Assembly (NCBI RefSeq): GCF_030067705.1 | Contig: NZ_JASJEX010000002.1 | Span: 62,001 to 126,000, forward strand | Source of the DNA: Kribbibacterium absianum | GTDB taxonomy: Bacteria; Actinomycetota; Coriobacteriia; Coriobacteriales; Atopobiaceae | Reading direction: 5' to 3' | DNA: 64,000 nt | Shown here: piece by piece, positions 31,621 to 42,621 of the stretch | Numbering within the stretch: position 1 is the stretch's first letter | Layout of the letters: every line of letters starts with the position of its first letter | Notes under the pieces: model-generated | What the model was told of the DNA's origin: nothing | The model's database searches: none | The model's input: the letters and a program-made list of their open reading frames with translations, nothing else | Translations under genes and position numbers: made by a program

Positions 31621-33042
31621 TCAGTAGCCCATGAGCTGCAGGGCGAACATGATCAGGGTCAGGATCACGATGAGCACGATGGTCACCCAGGTCACCCCGG
31701 TCCAGACGCGTCCGTTGCGGTACGGACCCATCACCCGCTTGTCGGACGCGATCTTCACCATGTACACCATCAGCACCGGCAGCAGCACGCCATTGACCAC
31801 CTGCGCGGCCATCATCACGCCAAAGAGGTCCACGTTGGGGACGAGCACCACCACGGCCGAGAGCACGATCACCGCCGTCACGATGCCGCAGTAGATGGGC
31901 GCCTCGCTCCAGCCATGGTCCGCGCCGTGCTCCCAGCCGAACGCCTCGCAGATGGCGCTCGCCGTGATGCCCGGCAGCACGCAGGCCGCGAGCAGCGACG
32001 CGCCCACCAGGCCGAGGCCAAAGAGCGCCTCGGCGTAATCGCCCACGATCGGCGCGAGGGCGCTCGCCGCCGTCGCGGCGTCGTCCACCACAAGGCCCGA
32101 GCCCGCCAGCGTCGCTCCCGTGGCCAGGATGATGAACCAGCTGATCACGCTCGCGAGCACCGCGCCCGTGCAGGTGTCGATGCGCTGGTAGGGGATCTCC
32201 TCGGTGCCGACGTTCTTGTCCACCACGTTGGACTGGGCGAGGAAGATCATCCACGGTGCGATGGTGGTGCCCGTGAGGGCCACGAGCAGCGACAGGTACT
32301 CCGGGCTCATCTGGACCTGCGGCACGAAGGTGTCGACCAGGGCCTCGCCCCAGTCGGGCCCCACCATCACGCCGGCGATCACGTAGGCCACAAAGATGCA
32401 GCTGATGGCCAAGAGGACCTTCTCGATGCGCTTGTAGGAGCCGCTCATCGTGAGCAGCCACACGGCGATGGCCGCGACGGGCACCGACACGTAGGGCGGC
32501 ACGCCGAAGAGGCTCATGCCGCTCGCCACGCCCGCGAACTCCGACAGCGTGACCATCGTGTTCGAGACGAGCAGCGACAGCATGGCCACGGCGCTCCACC
32601 GCACGCCGAACTGCTCGCGGATGAGGCTCGCGAACCCCTTGCCGGTGACGCAGCCCATGCGCGCGGCCGTCTCCTGCACCACCACCAGGAGGAAGCACAT
32701 CACGGGCACGGTCCAGAGAAGGCCGAATCCGAACATCGCGCCGGCGTTGGAGTAGGTGGCGATGCCGCCGGCGTCGGTGCCGGCAAGGGCGGCGATGAGG
32801 CCGGGGCCCATCGCGGCAAGCACCATCGACCAGCGCATCCGCGGCTTGGCGTGGGGCTCGGCCTGGTCCACGGTCTGGGGCCGGGTGCGCAGAGCGGGGC
32901 CGGCGGGCCGCTTCTTGACAGCGGGCTCGGCGGGCCGCTTGGGCGCGGGCGCCTTGTGGCCCACGCGCTCGGGCTTCTGGGAGGCCCCACGCCACGCGGT
33001 GCCACCCACGCGGCGCAGCCTCTCCTCCTTGCGGGGCGTCAT
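31621..33042 (-). CDS. NRAMP-related divalent cation transporter (probable Mg2+-type)
   Basis: The 473-residue protein has a 70-residue basic, proline-rich N-terminal tail and about eleven membrane helices. Helix 1 reads GTDAGGIAT where Mn/Fe NRAMPs have Asp-Pro-Gly-Asn: the aspartate (Asp90) is kept but the asparagine is glycine. Helix 6 reads TIAPWM where they have Met-Pro-His. These are the replacements reported for NRAMP-related magnesium transporters, characterised in Eggerthella lenta of the same class. It starts one base after the MgtE-like gene ends, so the two are co-translated. Mg2+ transport is inference from residues and partner. Confidence 0.78.
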   Translation of the reverse strand: MTPRKEERLRRVGGTAWRGASQKPERVGHKAPAPKRPAEPAVKKRPAGPALRTRPQTVDQAEPHAKPRMRWSMVLAAMGPGLIAALAGTDAGGIATYSNAGAMFGFGLLWTVPVMCFLLVVVQETAARMGCVTGKGFASLIREQFGVRWSAVAMLSLLVSNTMVTLSEFAGVASGMSLFGVPPYVSVPVAAIAVWLLTMSGSYKRIEKVLLAISCIFVAYVIAGVMVGPDWGEALVDTFVPQVQMSPEYLSLLVALTGTTIAPWMIFLAQSNVVDKNVGTEEIPYQRIDTCTGAVLASVISWFIILATGATLAGSGLVVDDAATAASALAPIVGDYAEALFGLGLVGASLLAACVLPGITASAICEAFGWEHGADHGWSEAPIYCGIVTAVIVLSAVVVLVPNVDLFGVMMAAQVVNGVLLPVLMVYMVKIASDKRVMGPYRNGRVWTGVTWVTIVLIVILTLIMFALQLMGY

Positions 33043-33043
33043 G

Positions 33044-34870
33044 CTACGCCCCCAGCCCGCAGGTGAGGAACGCCACGACCGCGTACACGGCGATGGCGAT
33101 CAGCTGCGCCAGGATGCGCAGCGTGAGACGGGAGGTCTCCTCGCCCTTCTCGTCGCGCCGGCGCAGCACCCGGAGGTAGAGGGGCGCGATGAGGAAGAGG
33201 CCGAGGCCCGCGACCACGGCGGCCACGAAGCCGAACACGAAGAGCGTCCGGGCCGGCTCGCCGTGGAAGAGCGCGCTGCCGAGGCCCGCCGCCACGAGCA
33301 GCACCAGGGCCAGGAACACGACGCTGATGCCGAGGCCGCGCCAGAAGAAGCTCGCGGTGGAGGGGGCGTCCTCGTCGTCCGCGTCGAACTCGATGAAGAA
33401 TCCGATCACGTAGTCCACCATCGAGTCCGCCGTGAGCAGCGCCACCGGCAGGCCCACGCACAGCGCGAGACCCGTGGCCCCCAGCCCGAGCGCGTTGCCC
33501 GCCGAGACGAGGATCGCCGCGCCGAGCGCCCAGAAGAACAGCCACAGCTGGTCGAGCAGCAACCATCGGAGGTCGTTGGAGGGCTGGTCGGAGTCGCTGT
33601 CGCGGCCGCCGGCGAGCACGAGGTCCTCCTCGTGCTCCTCCTCCATGACGTCGAGGGCGTCGTCCACGGTCACGATGCCGAGGATGCGGTTGTGCTCGTC
33701 CACCACGGGGATCGCGAGCAGGTTGTACTTGGAGATGGCCTCGGCGACGTCCTCCTGGTCGTCCTCGGGGTCGCAGGTGATGACGTCGGTGGCCATGAAG
33801 TCCTGGATCCGGGCCGTCATCGGCTGCACCACGATGTCGCGCAGGGTCACGACGCCGAGCAGCTTCTTGCCCTCGTCGGCCACGTAGAGGTAGTTGACGG
33901 TCTCCACTTCCTCGTCATCGAGGTCGCGGACCGCCTGCACGGCGTCGGCCACGGTGGCCGTGGGCTTGATCCAGAGGAACTCGCTCGTCATGATGCGGCC
34001 CGCGGTGTCCTCGCGGTAGCCGAGCAGCTGGCGGACGGCCTTCTCCTCCTTCACGCCCATCAGGCGCAGGAGCGTCTCGGCCTTCTCGTAGTCCAGCTCG
34101 CTCACCAGCTCCGCCGCGTCGTCCGGGTCCATCTCGGTGAGCAGGCGCGTGGCGTCGGCGGTGTCCATGTCGCCCATGATCTCGGCGGCCATCTCGTCGT
34201 CGTCCAGCTCGGCCATGGTCTCGGCGGCGCGGGTGTCGTCGAGCTGCGCGAAGACCTGGGCGCGGAGGCGCGGGTCCAGCTGCTCGATGATGTCCGCGAT
34301 GTCGGCCGGGTGCATGTCGTCGAGGGTCTTGTGCGAGACGCTGAGCTGCACGTCCGAGAGCTCGCGGTCGAGCAGGTCCATGTAGGACCAGGCGATGATC
34401 TTCTCAGGCACCTCTTTGCCCACGGCCTTCGCGGCCTTGACCACCGCGCGCTCCACCTTGGGCGACAGGGCGCGGAGGATGCCGCGGGCGCCCACCTCGG
34501 CGCCGAGCAGGCGCAGCTGGTTGGTGCCGGAGTCCGAGAGCTTGAGGTCGTTCACGCGCACCACGCGCAGGCCGCGGGTGTCCACGATCTGCTTGTTGAG
34601 CAGGTCGCGGGAGATGAGGACCTCGTTGGGCTGCAGGTACGAGAAGCGGATGTCGGTCGCGGGGACCTTGAGACGCACGGCGTCGTCGAACGAGTCGACG
34701 TACTTGCGCCAGCTGATCATGAACGGCGTCTTGCCGGGGCCCACGAACGCGAGGCTCGTCACCCGGGGGAAGACCTCGCCGGTGGCGATGCCCAGGTCGT
34801 TGACGGTGCCGATCTTCTCACCGTTCGAGTCGATAACGGGGATTCCCAGCATCTGGGACAGGTAAATCAT
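33044..34870 (-). CDS. PRC-barrel/MgtE_N/CBS protein with C-terminal membrane domain
   Basis: The 608-residue protein has an N-terminal PRC-barrel-like domain (1-75), an MgtE_N helical domain (about 180-290, with repeated Leu-Asp-Asp-Asp and MHPADIADIIEQL), a CBS pair (300-440) and four or five membrane helices (about 465-608). The membrane part does not show the Gly-Gly-Asn channel motif of MgtE, so it is probably a Mg2+-sensing regulator or partner rather than a true MgtE channel. It precedes and nearly overlaps the NRAMP-related gene. A structured leader at 34881-34985 lies upstream. Confidence 0.8.
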   Translation of the reverse strand: MIYLSQMLGIPVIDSNGEKIGTVNDLGIATGEVFPRVTSLAFVGPGKTPFMISWRKYVDSFDDAVRLKVPATDIRFSYLQPNEVLISRDLLNKQIVDTRGLRVVRVNDLKLSDSGTNQLRLLGAEVGARGILRALSPKVERAVVKAAKAVGKEVPEKIIAWSYMDLLDRELSDVQLSVSHKTLDDMHPADIADIIEQLDPRLRAQVFAQLDDTRAAETMAELDDDEMAAEIMGDMDTADATRLLTEMDPDDAAELVSELDYEKAETLLRLMGVKEEKAVRQLLGYREDTAGRIMTSEFLWIKPTATVADAVQAVRDLDDEEVETVNYLYVADEGKKLLGVVTLRDIVVQPMTARIQDFMATDVITCDPEDDQEDVAEAISKYNLLAIPVVDEHNRILGIVTVDDALDVMEEEHEEDLVLAGGRDSDSDQPSNDLRWLLLDQLWLFFWALGAAILVSAGNALGLGATGLALCVGLPVALLTADSMVDYVIGFFIEFDADDEDAPSTASFFWRGLGISVVFLALVLLVAAGLGSALFHGEPARTLFVFGFVAAVVAGLGLFLIAPLYLRVLRRRDEKGEETSRLTLRILAQLIAIAVYAVVAFLTCGLGA

Positions 34871-34998
34871 GGTTGTGACTCCTAACGAGTGCGCCCCGAG
34901 CGCACGCGTTAGGCCGCCCAGGGATCAGAGACTGTGAGGTCGGGGTTTCATCACGATCCTTTCGGTCGCCCCTGGACAGATTGCCGCAGGTCATTCTA
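34868..34998 (-). promoter_or_regulatory. Structured 5' leader (candidate regulatory RNA) of the MgtE-like gene
   Basis: Read on the minus strand, a possible -10 box TAGAAT (34993-34998) precedes a stem CCAGGG/CCCTGG (34970-34975 with 34918-34923) enclosing a hairpin with a GAAA tetraloop (34954-34968). A second long hairpin at 34881-34913 has stem CCTAACG/CGTTAGG plus TGCG/CGCA and includes part of the AGGAG ribosome site. The layout, a folded domain followed by a site-sequestering hairpin, is that of a translational riboswitch. It does not match the M-box or yybP-ykoY consensus as I know them. Confidence 0.5.
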
Positions 34999-35024
34999 AC
35001 AGCTTGCGTGCTGAAAACCAGCGC

Positions 35025-35510
35025 TTAGGCCGTGGCCCGGGCCTTCTCCAGGCGGTCCTCAGCCACGAGGTCCTCGGCCGCCTCGCTCACGGCGTCGAGC
35101 ACGGCCACCACCTGGGTCAGGTCGAGGCCCTCCAGGCGGTCCGCCAGCGCGTCGACGGTGCGAAGCACCCGGGCGTGCTGCTTGTCGTAGAGGTCCGAGT
35201 CCTCGCGGAGCTCCATGAACACCCGGCGGCGGTCCTCGGTGGAGCGGTGCCGGCGCACGATGCCCTTCTCCTCCATGGCCTGGAGGGTTCGGTTCATCTG
35301 GGACTTCATGATGTGCGACTCGCGGCAGAGGTCCGTGGCCGTGAGCATCGTGCCGGGGTTCTCCATCTTGTTCTTCATGAGCAGGTTGCAGATGACCGCC
35401 TCGTTGTAACGAAGGTCGTCGAACCGTTGGAGCTGGGAGATGTTGGAGGTGATGCGCAACCACGCGCTGAGCAGCTGTTCGCGCTCGTCGCGTCCCTTGA
35501 TCTCACCCAT
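35025..35510 (-). CDS. MarR-family transcriptional regulator
   Basis: The 161-residue protein has a winged helix in the middle: LTATDLCRESHIMKSQMNRTLQAMEEKGIV followed by the wing RRHRSTEDRRRVFMEL, written here in two pieces. This is typical of MarR proteins, which bind palindromes and are often released by small phenolic ligands. I chose the ATG at 35510, with GGAGG nine bases upstream. It precedes the MgtE-like gene by 154 bp and follows the nitroreductase terminator; its target is unknown. Confidence 0.85.
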   Translation of the reverse strand: MGEIKGRDEREQLLSAWLRITSNISQLQRFDDLRYNEAVICNLLMKNKMENPGTMLTATDLCRESHIMKSQMNRTLQAMEEKGIVRRHRSTEDRRRVFMELREDSDLYDKQHARVLRTVDALADRLEGLDLTQVVAVLDAVSEAAEDLVAEDRLEKARATA

Positions 35511-35577
35511 GGGCGTGCGCCTCCAATTCCAGCCGCAAAAGGCTAAAGAGCAACCAGTTAACTTATCCCACAAGAAG

Positions 35578-35604
35578 GGGGCCGGTTCAAGGAGAACCGG
35601 CCCC
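35578..35604 (-). terminator. Terminator of the nitroreductase gene
   Basis: Arms GGGGCCGGTTC and GAACCGGCCCC with a 5-nt loop; on the minus strand the stem is followed by CTTCTTGT. It lies about 40 bp beyond the nitroreductase stop. Confidence 0.8.
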
Positions 35605-35645
35605 GATCGACTGGGACGAAGCACGCGCGGTGGCGTCTGCGCAGG

Positions 35646-36317
35646 TCAGGCCCAGCACACGTTCTCGGCGCCGGCCCCCAGCTCAAAGTGCCGCTTGACG
35701 ATGCCGAGGTCCACGTCGGCATAGGGCGCGGGCAGCGCCTCGGCGCGGACCGTGCCGCCGCGGTAGGTGATGTGGAACCGTTGCTGGTTCATCGCGGTGG
35801 GCGCGAGCTGCGCCGCCCACATGCCCTCCTGGAACCATGCCGGCGCCTCGACGCCGCCCTCGACGGTGCAGAGCTTCTCGAGGGGCTTCACCGGGTGCGT
35901 GGACCCGGAGCCGGCGCCATGGCCGAGCGCCACCACGCAGACGAGCTTCTCGTCGGGGGCCAGGCCGCCGCGCACGATGCCGTGCTTGTAGGTGAGGCCC
36001 ACCCAGCAGCTGTTGAGGCCCATCTCCTGGGCCTCGAGGACGATGAGCTCGCCGGCGTAGCCCACGTCCTGGCTCAGGTGCAGGCTGCGCTCGCCGGCGC
36101 AGACGAGGTAGTTGGTCACGCCCTTGAACGCGCCATAGGCCGGGAGGCTCGACGAGAAGGCCCGGGGCTCGTCAAAGGCCAGGCGGAACGAGAGGCCGGG
36201 GGTGCGGTTGGCGTCCGCAACGAGGGCGGAGAGGCGCTCGCGGTCCTCGGGGCCGATGGGGTCCGGGAGATAGGAGCGCACGGAGTGGCGCTGGGCGATG
36301 GCATCGAGAAGGGGCAT
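35646..36317 (-). CDS. Nitroreductase-family flavoprotein
   Basis: The 223-residue protein fits the NfsB/FRase-like nitroreductase superfamily: FMN phosphate-binding RHSVRSYLPDPI at the N terminus, the middle block VGYAGELIVLEAQEMGLNSCWVG and the C-terminal LAPTAMNQQRFHITYR. These enzymes use FMN and NAD(P)H to reduce nitro groups, quinones or enones. I chose the ATG at 36317; its ribosome site (AAAGG) is weak. It has its own terminator and a 236 bp upstream region shared with the divergent membrane protein gene. Confidence 0.85.
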   Translation of the reverse strand: MPLLDAIAQRHSVRSYLPDPIGPEDRERLSALVADANRTPGLSFRLAFDEPRAFSSSLPAYGAFKGVTNYLVCAGERSLHLSQDVGYAGELIVLEAQEMGLNSCWVGLTYKHGIVRGGLAPDEKLVCVVALGHGAGSGSTHPVKPLEKLCTVEGGVEAPAWFQEGMWAAQLAPTAMNQQRFHITYRGGTVRAEALPAPYADVDLGIVKRHFELGAGAENVCWA

Positions 36318-36553
36318 GGGCGCCGCCTTTCTGCGAGGGGTCGACGCACCCAGCATACCCGGCCCCGGTGCCCGGGAAACGGCCGCGCCACGGGCGAGCG
36401 GCGCAGCGAGGGGAGTGTCGAGGGCCGAGAGCCAACGGCCGCGGGGGACTCGCCGTGGAGGGTCCGCTGCTGAGGGCCCGCTGACAGGACGCGCTCCGAG
36501 GCGAGGGTACAAGCATCCGCAGACATCGAAATAACGAACCCGAGGAGGTCACC

Positions 36554-37213: not shown

Positions 37214-37349
37214 GCCAACGGCCGTCGGCCGCCCCGCACGGTCGGTCTTTTGATGGGCCTCGGGGGCTTTGCATCGACCCCTCCCGCACAAATGGGTAGA
37301 GCCCGGGTGCAGCACGTCCATTCGAGTTTGCGTTTCAGGAAGGTGTTCC

Positions 37350-37994
37350 ATGAACGTCTCAACCACCCAGCAGCTGCTGGTCCTCGCACTCAACAATGAC
37401 GGCGTCGTCCCCACCAAGGAGGCCATGGCGGCCATCGTCGCCTGCGGCCTTTTTGAGCTGGAGAACGACGGCGTCGCCGACTTCAAGGACGGCAAGGCCC
37501 GCATCAAGGGCGAGCTGCCGGCCGACAAGGAGTACCTGCTGCCGCTCTACCGCTTCATCGAGCAGCGCGAGGAGGTCTCCGTCCAGACGATCATGGACGA
37601 GTTCGTCGAGGGCGACCAGGCCGGCGACTTCCTCGCCGCGCTGGCGCTGCCGCTGCGCAAGGGCGGCTACATCCTCGGCGAGCAGTCCGAGGTGGTCTTC
37701 GTGCCGACCGCCGAGGCCAAGCGCGAGTTCAAGGACTACGCGGTTCAGGCCATGGACGGCAAGGCCCCGATGACACAGGACGAGGCGGCCCTTCTCACCT
37801 TCGCCCTGGGCGCCGGTCTCCGCGACGAGCTCTTCGGCCGCGCCGAGCTCAAGGACAAGCTCATGGTGGAGCTCCACGGCCGCAAGATCGAGCTCTTCAT
37901 GGCCCCGGAGGCCAAGGACGCCTTCGAGTCCACGTTCAGCGAGATCCAGAAGCGCTTCGCGCCCTACGTGGTGAAGTACGTGGCCGAGCACTAA
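37350..37994 (+). CDS. Protein of unknown function, possibly GPP34/GOLPH3-like
   Basis: The 214-residue soluble protein begins VSTTQQLLVLALNNDGVVP and contains alternating helical blocks rich in Glu, Lys and Leu, with no membrane segment or catalytic motif. The LLVLALNN(D/G) opening and helical repeats vaguely recall GPP34 (GOLPH3-like) phosphoinositide-binding proteins, but the match is weak. AGGAAGG lies six bases before the ATG at 37350. A strong terminator follows at 38016. Codon use is like that of highly expressed genes here. Confidence 0.7.
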   Translation: MNVSTTQQLLVLALNNDGVVPTKEAMAAIVACGLFELENDGVADFKDGKARIKGELPADKEYLLPLYRFIEQREEVSVQTIMDEFVEGDQAGDFLAALALPLRKGGYILGEQSEVVFVPTAEAKREFKDYAVQAMDGKAPMTQDEAALLTFALGAGLRDELFGRAELKDKLMVELHGRKIELFMAPEAKDAFESTFSEIQKRFAPYVVKYVAEH

Positions 37995-38172: not shown

Positions 38173-39417
38173 GTGAACCCATTGGCAGCGCCAGCAGGCA
38201 ATCAACCGGCACCGGCCCTTCTCGCACTCGAGAACGGCCGGTGTTTTTTTGGGCGGTCGTGCGGTGCTCTGGGAGAGGCCTTTGGCGAGGCCGTCTTCAA
38301 CACCTCGATGATCGGCTACCAGGAGGTGGTCACCGACCCCTCCTACGCGGGTCAGGTCGTGGCCCTCACCTACCCGCAGGTGGGCAACTATGGCATGAAC
38401 GCGCGGGACGGCCAGGCGCCGCACCCGGCGCTCGAGGCCCTCGTCGTGGGCGACCTCTGCCGCACCCCGAGCCACTGGCAGTCCGACGAGGCCCTCGGCG
38501 ACTACCTGGCCCGGGAGGGCGTCGTGGCCATCGAGGGCGTGGACACCCGCGCGCTCACGCTGTGCCTGCGCGAGGAGGGCGCCATGCGCGCGGCCGTCTC
38601 GACCGAGGACCTGGACCCGGAGTCGCTCGTGGAGCGCGTGCGGGCGTCCCGGCCCATCGGCGAGCGCGACCTCGTCGCCCAGGTCTCCCGGGGGCAGCCC
38701 CGCACCATTCCGGCCCGCGGTGCCGCGCGCCGGCGCGTCGTCGCCGTGGACTGCGGCGAGAAGGCCGGCATCATGGAATGCCTGGCCGCGGCCGGCGTCG
38801 AGTGCGAGCTCGTGCCCTGGGACACCCCGGCCACAAGCATCCTCGCGCGCGACCCGGACGGCGTCTTCTTCTCCAACGGCCCCGGCGACCCGGCCGCGAT
38901 CCCACAGGTCACGGCCTGCGCGCGCGAGCTTCTCGGCCAGGTGCCGCTCTTTGGGATCTGCCTCGGCAACCAGGTGCTCGCCACCGCCGCGGGCGCGTCC
39001 ATCGAGAAGCTCGCCTTCGGCCACCACGGCGGCAACGAGCCGGTGATGAACCTCCTCACCGGCCGCACCGAGGTCACGGCGCAGAACCACAACTACGGGC
39101 CGGTCTTCTCGTCGCTGGGGCCGCTCGTCCCGGAACTCTCCGGAGGCGTGGCCGAGCACCCGGGCGACCTTCGCGTCTGGAGCGAGCGCCGCATCGCCCC
39201 CGTGGTGATGAACCCGCAGGTAGGACGCGTGCGGCTCACCCACGTGAACCTCAACGACGGCACGCCCGAGGGGCTCCAGTTCCTCGACGCCCGGGCCTTC
39301 TCGCTCCAGTACCACCCCGAGGCGCGCCCCGGCCCCACGGACGCCCGCTACGCGTTCGACGCGTTCGTGCGCCTGATGGACGGCGACCCCGAGTACCTCG
39401 AGCAAGGGAGGGCGTAG
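38173..39417 (+). CDS. carA: Carbamoyl-phosphate synthase small subunit
   Basis: The 414-residue glutaminase subunit releases ammonia from glutamine for carbamoyl-phosphate synthesis in the pyrimidine and arginine pathways. The N-terminal CPSase domain has FNTSMIGYQEVVTDPSY. The C-terminal class I glutamine amidotransferase has the nucleophile in FGICLGNQ, where Asn replaces the common His next to Gln, and the catalytic HPEA in SLQYHPEARPGP. It starts with GTG at 38173 after GGAGGGAG. carB starts directly after its stop codon. Confidence 0.95.
   Translation: MNPLAAPAGNQPAPALLALENGRCFFGRSCGALGEAFGEAVFNTSMIGYQEVVTDPSYAGQVVALTYPQVGNYGMNARDGQAPHPALEALVVGDLCRTPSHWQSDEALGDYLAREGVVAIEGVDTRALTLCLREEGAMRAAVSTEDLDPESLVERVRASRPIGERDLVAQVSRGQPRTIPARGAARRRVVAVDCGEKAGIMECLAAAGVECELVPWDTPATSILARDPDGVFFSNGPGDPAAIPQVTACARELLGQVPLFGICLGNQVLATAAGASIEKLAFGHHGGNEPVMNLLTGRTEVTAQNHNYGPVFSSLGPLVPELSGGVAEHPGDLRVWSERRIAPVVMNPQVGRVRLTHVNLNDGTPEGLQFLDARAFSLQYHPEARPGPTDARYAFDAFVRLMDGDPEYLEQGRA

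Positions 39418-42621
<3,204 letters not shown>

Follow-up and report, generated by a model that had tools for sequence, protein, structure and literature searches.

A candidate upstream-ORF attenuator in the leader of a magnesium-uptake operon of Coriobacteriales

What kind of switch, if any, lies in the folded leader ahead of the MgtE-like gene of Kribbibacterium absianum? A preliminary description, made from the DNA letters of this locus, had proposed a metal-sensing riboswitch. We examined the leader within the window, the whole stretch of 64,000 nucleotides that was analysed (contig NZ_JASJEX010000002.1, positions 62,001 to 126,000), and in relatives throughout the order. On the minus strand, it fills the gap that separates a MarR-family gene, which ends at 35025, from the ATG of the MgtE-like gene at 34870-34868, with a TAGAAT hexamer about 120 nt ahead of that ATG. 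Of 43 non-redundant Atopobiaceae leaders, 39 had a TANAAT box 40-98 nt before the small upstream ORF (uORF) described below, where 2.3 would be expected. The TAGAAT box is thus plausible as a promoter element, and the transcript probably starts just before the first pairing segment of the leader (segment 1, Table 1). Read-through from upstream is also possible, from the MarR-family regulator gene just ahead of the operon (35025-35624, minus strand) and the nitroreductase-like gene that precedes it on the same strand (35646-36512). Further along, on the plus strand, positions 37269-37994 encode a bacterial protein with a weak match, just below the Pfam cut-off, to the GPP34 (Golgi phosphoprotein 3) domain, and two adjoining ORFs of 414 and 1067 aa (38173-42621) resemble carbamoyl-phosphate synthase subunits by eye.

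The minimum free energy (MFE) of the leader was -50.7 kcal/mol, compared with a mean of -42.2 for shuffled sequences (z = -2.3; 5 of 200 shuffles were as good). In this fold CCAGGG (34975-34970) pairs with CCCTGG (34923-34918), and a second strong hairpin covers the AGG of the AGGAG ribosome site of the MgtE-like gene. The -10 box with its folded leader, the closed domain and the hairpin over part of the ribosome site, all of which had been pointed out before, were thus recovered. The GAAA-capped hairpin (CC-GAAA-GG) of the same description was absent from the MFE fold, and its GAAAGG turned out to be the Shine-Dalgarno sequence of the uORF. No intrinsic terminator was found in the leader, the sole terminator-like site being inside the MarR gene. 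A single-sequence fold of this kind is only modestly better than chance, and it is the comparison with other genomes that makes the leader structure real.

We then asked which genes the leader precedes. The protein of gene 1 gave no match to PF01769. The product of gene 2 scored 492.6 bits against EleNRMT (7qia), with 109.6 bits for the next best NRAMP structure, and its translation contains DAGG and TTIA, which correspond to the DxxG (helix 1) and TxxA/T (helix 6) motif of NRMTs. EleNRMT is a Mg2+ transporter with the DxxG / TxxA motif of this clade (PMC8806188), and by similarity and motif gene 2 belongs to the NRMT, Mg2+ clade of NRAMP. Close EleNRMT homologues sit in the orthologous operon in Eggerthellaceae (93-97% identical in the nearest genomes); because the NRMT adjoining the leader reaches this identity to E. 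lenta EleNRMT in four genomes, we took family f4 of our sample as Eggerthellaceae. Family f1 was taken as Atopobiaceae, and f3 is a second family, possibly Coriobacteriaceae. The genome has one CorA. The Eggerthellaceae orthologues (L142-L171) match the MgtE-like protein only to about residue 416 and seem to be without the C-terminal hydrophobic region. Six leaders of that family (L144, L147, L148, L151, L159 and L160) come shortly after what looks like a tRNA-gene 3' end (ggttcgaatccctcacggcgcacca) together with a T-rich stretch resembling a terminator, and the operon may stand behind a tRNA gene there.

Genes like those of this operon have a reported link to Mg2+ regulation: nrmT genes often adjoin such an MgtE-N gene, and in Clostridia they are under an M-box (PMC4072509). 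In our sample of the order, families f7 and f8 had an M-box immediately before their MgtE-like orthologue (L212, L213, L214), and none was found in the f1, f3 and f4 genomes; the leader element thus occupies the position that a Mg2+ riboswitch holds in sister families. The Rfam 15 families gave no regulatory match at the window or at the loci of ten relatives, where only tRNAs passed the gathering threshold. The M-box model (RF00380) had no match in the window at gathering, nor in 34500-35200 at E<=10, and the yybP-ykoY and NiCo models had none in the window or the ten relatives' loci. The suggestion of an undescribed structured regulatory leader of Coriobacteriales therefore held against Rfam.

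The best-conserved part of the leader is the uORF. In the window it reads ATG AAA CCC CGA CCT CAC AGT CTC TGA and encodes the 8-codon peptide MKPRPHSL* (34951-34925, minus strand). A search of the window with the uORF pattern returned this one match, and shuffled sequences returned none. Its codons are mostly rare, AAA, CCU, CGA and AGU being minor synonyms in nine genes of the window (a small sample).

Table 1 Features of the leader and the operon in the window.
Feature	Position	Strand	Basis
-10 promoter hexamer TAGAAT	34993..34998	-	sequence; TANAAT in relatives' leaders
Segment 1, CCAGGG, 5' arm of P1 (1:2)	34970..34975	-	MFE fold; in relatives, P1 5' arm varies together with the stop codon
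uORF Shine-Dalgarno GAAAGGA	34957..34963	-	SD core in 177/177 leaders
uORF, leader peptide MKPRPHSL*	34925..34951	-	8-codon uORF in 87/90 Atopobiaceae leaders
Segment 2, CCCTGGGC, just after the uORF stop; predicted to pair with segment 1 (P1) or segment 3 (P3)	34916..34923	-	2:3 covariation
Segment 3, GCTCGGGG; predicted to pair with segment 2 (P3, antisequestrator) or to join P4	34894..34901	-	window's own leader (row L002)
P4 (3:4), GTGCGCT-cgg-GGCGCAC, nested inside the sequestrator	34889..34905	-	folds; cross-genus 3:4 covariation
Predicted sequestrator, anti-SD CCTAACG (34913-34907) with CGTTAGG (34887-34881), hiding AGG	34881..34913	-	fold; cross-genus covariation
Shine-Dalgarno AGGAG of the MgtE-like gene	34879..34883	-	sequence
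Gene 1, PRC-barrel + MgtE_N + CBS, C-terminal hydrophobic region	33044..34870	-	domain matches
Gene 2, NRMT, NRAMP-related Mg2+ transporter	31621..33042	-	Pfam Nramp; EleNRMT similarity

We compared the uORF across the families of the order. An MgtE-like orthologue was present in 115 of 140 Atopobiaceae genomes, and 87 of the 90 leaders read in this family carried an 8-codon uORF, which encodes exactly MKPRPHSR in 68. The three others (L009, L048, L083) carry the MgtE-like gene but no uORF; L009 and L048 seem to have a different coding sequence that extends as far as this gene. The uORF is nearly always single-copy per genome, and it stood before the MgtE-like gene wherever this was checked. 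In f3 its start lies two codons further upstream, in frame, as GTG or TTG, giving MK(S/P/A)KPRP(H/Y)SR; in f6 a GTG start gives MKPRPHSS; and in Eggerthellaceae a TTG or GTG start gives MKVRKxKPHSx in nearly all of 70 leaders. Over 177 leaders the length is fixed within each family (8, 10, 8 and 11 codons), with one exception of 9. A Shine-Dalgarno core lies 3-20 nt upstream of the uORF in every one of them, against about 10% (Atopobiaceae) or 6% (Eggerthellaceae) in nearby sequence. Every leader ends the uORF with one of the three stop codons, TGA, TAG or TAA, and none has a sense codon there; among Atopobiaceae, about eight genera include TAG or TAA stops. An acidic residue is found in only 3 of the 177 peptides (MKDRPHSR twice and one MKVRERKPVSK). 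These patterns indicate selection on the uORF as a coding sequence. Within it, CGA (codon 4) and AGU (codon 7) are invariant among the Atopobiaceae representatives, a conservation beyond the needs of the peptide, so part of the constraint acts on the RNA or on codon choice; the uORF is under a double constraint, that of coding plus that of pairing or codon choice.

The element appears confined to this order in the genomes searched. Search R1 gave matches in f1 and f3, plus a few in f4, f6 and f10, those in f4 and f10 being weak (G304, G398), and among 297 genomes sampled from the phylum, neither R1 nor R2 matched any outside the order. The exact Atopobiaceae pattern, run over 84,980 species genomes, was found on 78 contigs, all of them titled as Atopobiaceae, Coriobacteriaceae/Coriobacteriales or unspecified actinobacteria and including the genera Olsenella, Atopobium, Lancefieldella, Parafannyhessea and Thermophilibacter; no viral contig matched. 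In literature searches, we found no publication on MKPRP or on a Mg2+ riboswitch in Coriobacteriia. As far as Rfam 15 and these literature searches show, the sequence family, the peptide and the phylum are new for a kind of uORF attenuator that is already known.

The leader follows a four-segment plan in the order of a trp attenuator, in which 1:2 would wrap the uORF and 2:3 competes with 3:4. The families share little sequence downstream of the uORF, yet they keep the same plan: segment 2, which starts at the uORF stop, can pair with 1 or 3, segment 3 can pair with 2 or 4, and the 3:4 helix lies inside an anti-SD:SD helix at the MgtE-like gene. RNAalifold was uninformative on the Eggerthellaceae leaders, in which the helix register slides, and partner-swap tests were used instead. 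We compared the pairing energies of own and swapped partners with one leader per genus (27 Atopobiaceae and 33 Eggerthellaceae genera) and 20000 permutations. The energies for own versus swapped partners in Atopobiaceae were -16.43 versus -14.25 for anti-SD:RBS, -20.33 versus -17.01 for 2:3, and -14.89 versus -12.50 for 3:4; in Eggerthellaceae they were -14.94 versus -10.96, -17.55 versus -12.88, and -17.34 versus -13.31, respectively. No permutation out of 20000 was as strong for anti-SD:RBS or 2:3 in either family, and for 3:4 there was 1 of 20000 in Atopobiaceae and 0 of 20000 in Eggerthellaceae. The z values of the three pairings ranged from -4.5 to -9.6, and larger leader sets also co-varied. 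These statistics ignore the tree, a worry that is limited by genus-level sampling and by two sequence sets with different helices. The 10 leaders of f3 were too similar to one another to give the tests power on 2:3 or anti-SD:RBS. The covariation that had been suggested as a check on orthologous leaders is thus present, and the comparisons argue for mutually exclusive 2:3 and 3:4 helices, with the ribosome site predicted to be hidden together with 3:4.

The helices around the uORF gave mixed results. In Atopobiaceae the 5' arms of P1 track the stop codon (0 of 20000 permutations): leaders with a TAG stop have a P1 score of 13.9 with their own arm versus 5.3 with arms of the other stop types, and the P1 arm of the four TAA-stop leaders shows no such tracking. 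Despite this tracking, P1 was weak in a free-window swap test and modest in a further test. P2 (CGAC/GUCG) has invariant GAC/GUC pairs and almost no covariation; we dropped it as a proven helix, its near-invariance being evidence neither way. When the uORF or the stop region was masked, folding without pseudoknots shifted the predicted pairing of the Shine-Dalgarno sequence only slightly. A pseudoknot between the anti-SD in the P3 loop and the Shine-Dalgarno sequence was considered as the main sequestrator and, after the folds, was replaced by the nested anti-SD:SD + 3:4 hairpin; according to the models, the anti-SD in the P3 loop of the 2:3 state could still reach the Shine-Dalgarno sequence as a pseudoknot.

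On this evidence, we consider it likely that the leader is a uORF-driven translational attenuator of a Mg2+-uptake operon, probably on at low Mg2+. Sequence comparison supports the uORF, its Shine-Dalgarno sequence, its start and stop codons, the alternative pairings and the identity of the operon; that translation of the uORF drives the switch, in which direction it is ON or OFF, and that low Mg2+ is the signal, we infer. A ribosome would start on the uORF, of 8-11 mostly rare codons. When Mg2+ is short, it would stay at the uORF start (slow, paused or dropping off), leaving segment 1 open and segment 2 free. Free segment 2 would pair with 3, which would keep 3:4 and anti-SD:SD from forming as a single hairpin and leave the MgtE_N/CBS-NRMT operon with an exposed ribosome site (ON). 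When the uORF is read to its stop, the ribosome would cover segment 2, and 3:4 + anti-SD:SD would form and hide the site (OFF). An untranslated uORF would give the same OFF state with segment 2 tied up by segment 1. By an estimate from the usual ribosome footprint, segment 2 should be free only while the ribosome is still on the first two or three codons, so an early pause or drop-off would be the expected step on an 8-codon uORF. Arrest at the stop codon would cover segment 2 and, on this wiring, give the opposite output. The logic by which a ribosome early on the uORF means ON was drawn by analogy with Salmonella mgtQ.

A ribosome-driven attenuator need not sense Mg2+, and this one might instead report the charging of tRNA for Pro, Arg or Lys, or the general translation rate, as Salmonella mgtP responds to charged tRNA-Pro (cited in PMC8092293). 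The Pro- and Arg-rich peptide and its rare codons throughout fit such a sensor; however, the amino-acid make-up differs by family (MKPRPHSR versus MKVRKSKPHSK), with little repetition of any one amino acid, the genes under control are for Mg2+ uptake and an M-box takes the same place in sister families, so we regard this reading as unlikely.

The metal-sensing riboswitch of the preliminary description fared differently in its two parts: the structured regulatory leader stood, and the metal-binding aptamer found no support, since the best-conserved part is an in-frame short ORF and the rest reads as a 1:2 / 2:3 / 3:4 attenuator. Were the leader a genuine metal riboswitch, its core (P1/P2, containing the invariant CGACC...GUC) would be an aptamer for Mg2+ or another ligand, shifting 2:3 versus 3:4, and the ORF would be incidental. 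The nucleotide conservation of the core is indeed very high, the GAC/GUC pairs of P2 do not vary, the element occupies the place of the M-box, and alternative helices suit any ligand-driven switch. Against this, the stop column holds only stop codons over many genera, the start codon varies among ATG, GTG and TTG in frame and shifts by two codons, with the Shine-Dalgarno core in 177 of 177 leaders, and the Eggerthellaceae leaders, which have a largely different core sequence without the P1/P2 core of Atopobiaceae, retain the uORF and the 2:3/3:4 plan. Because uORF starts and stops vary only among valid codons and the Eggerthellaceae keep the plan with a different core, we rejected the aptamer as first choice, consider it quite unlikely, and prefer a ribosome-mediated leader-peptide switch. 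Hairpins that, without any switch, only hold translation at a constant low level, or that link translation of the operon to that of the uORF, would agree with a Shine-Dalgarno sequence predicted to be largely paired in every modelled state, but are very unlikely given that a static hairpin needs no 2:3 and that 2:3 and 3:4 exclude each other and both show cross-genus covariation.

If the leader is a uORF-driven attenuator, the question arises how Mg2+ shortage could be signalled by a peptide that has no acidic residues. One tentative answer, which we hold to be doubtful, is that the basic, Pro-rich peptide itself makes the ribosome a Mg2+ sensor and represents a novel class of pausing or arrest peptides sensitive to Mg2+, which would have replaced the M-box in Atopobiaceae, Eggerthellaceae and the related family. 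Its KPRP(H/Y)S core may resemble in sequence the proline-rich peptides of insects that act by trapping release factors on stop codons.

Among known systems, the closest in plan is Salmonella mgtQ, in which an 8-codon ORF and stems 1:2/3:4 versus 2:3 were shown experimentally to control mgtB translation (PMC8092293). The two share an 8-codon ORF and a choice between 3:4 and 2:3, to which 1:2 belongs as a putative helix in Coriobacteriales, together with a Mg2+ transporter ribosome site hidden with 3:4 and translational control, which in Coriobacteriales is predicted. They differ in phylum and show no apparent shared peptide sequence; mgtQ lies inside its operon before mgtB, whereas the Coriobacteriales leader is at the 5' end before MgtE_N/CBS-NRMT. 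mgtQ depends on Asp2/Glu5, acidic codons with a destabilising effect, and these residues are absent from the basic, Pro-rich peptides MKPRPHSR, MKSKPRPYSR and MKVRKSKPHSK. In the mgtL leader peptide of enterobacterial mgtA, low Mg2+ interferes with uORF translation at an EPDP motif, and the output is Rho-dependent termination (PMC11282234 and references therein). Our leader likewise has a short uORF, with a presumed regulatory role, before a Mg2+ transporter gene; unlike mgtL, its visible output is masking of the ribosome site, no intrinsic terminator having been found, and no acidic/Pro motif such as EPDP was seen near the start, acidic residues occurring in only three leaders.

The leader shares with the M-box (ykoK, RF00380) its place before the orthologous MgtE-like gene, as in f7 and f8, and the M-box also precedes nrmT in Clostridia (PMC4072509); it differs from it in having no RF00380 match, another structure and a conserved uORF. 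Sister families would thus use either a Mg2+ riboswitch or a candidate leader-peptide attenuator ahead of one and the same orthologous operon, and the structurally characterised NRMT of gut Eggerthellaceae is placed under a defined candidate switch. The four-segment logic is that of trp-type attenuators, and, as with ilvB-II in Corynebacterium, where a uORF was first listed as an RNA motif (PMC10272879), a conserved RNA motif turned out to hold a uORF. Unlike those systems, the Coriobacteriales leader would act by masking the ribosome site, its peptide is not a run of one amino acid, and it precedes a Mg2+-uptake operon. These comparisons point to an mgtQ-like attenuator plan with a different peptide in another phylum.
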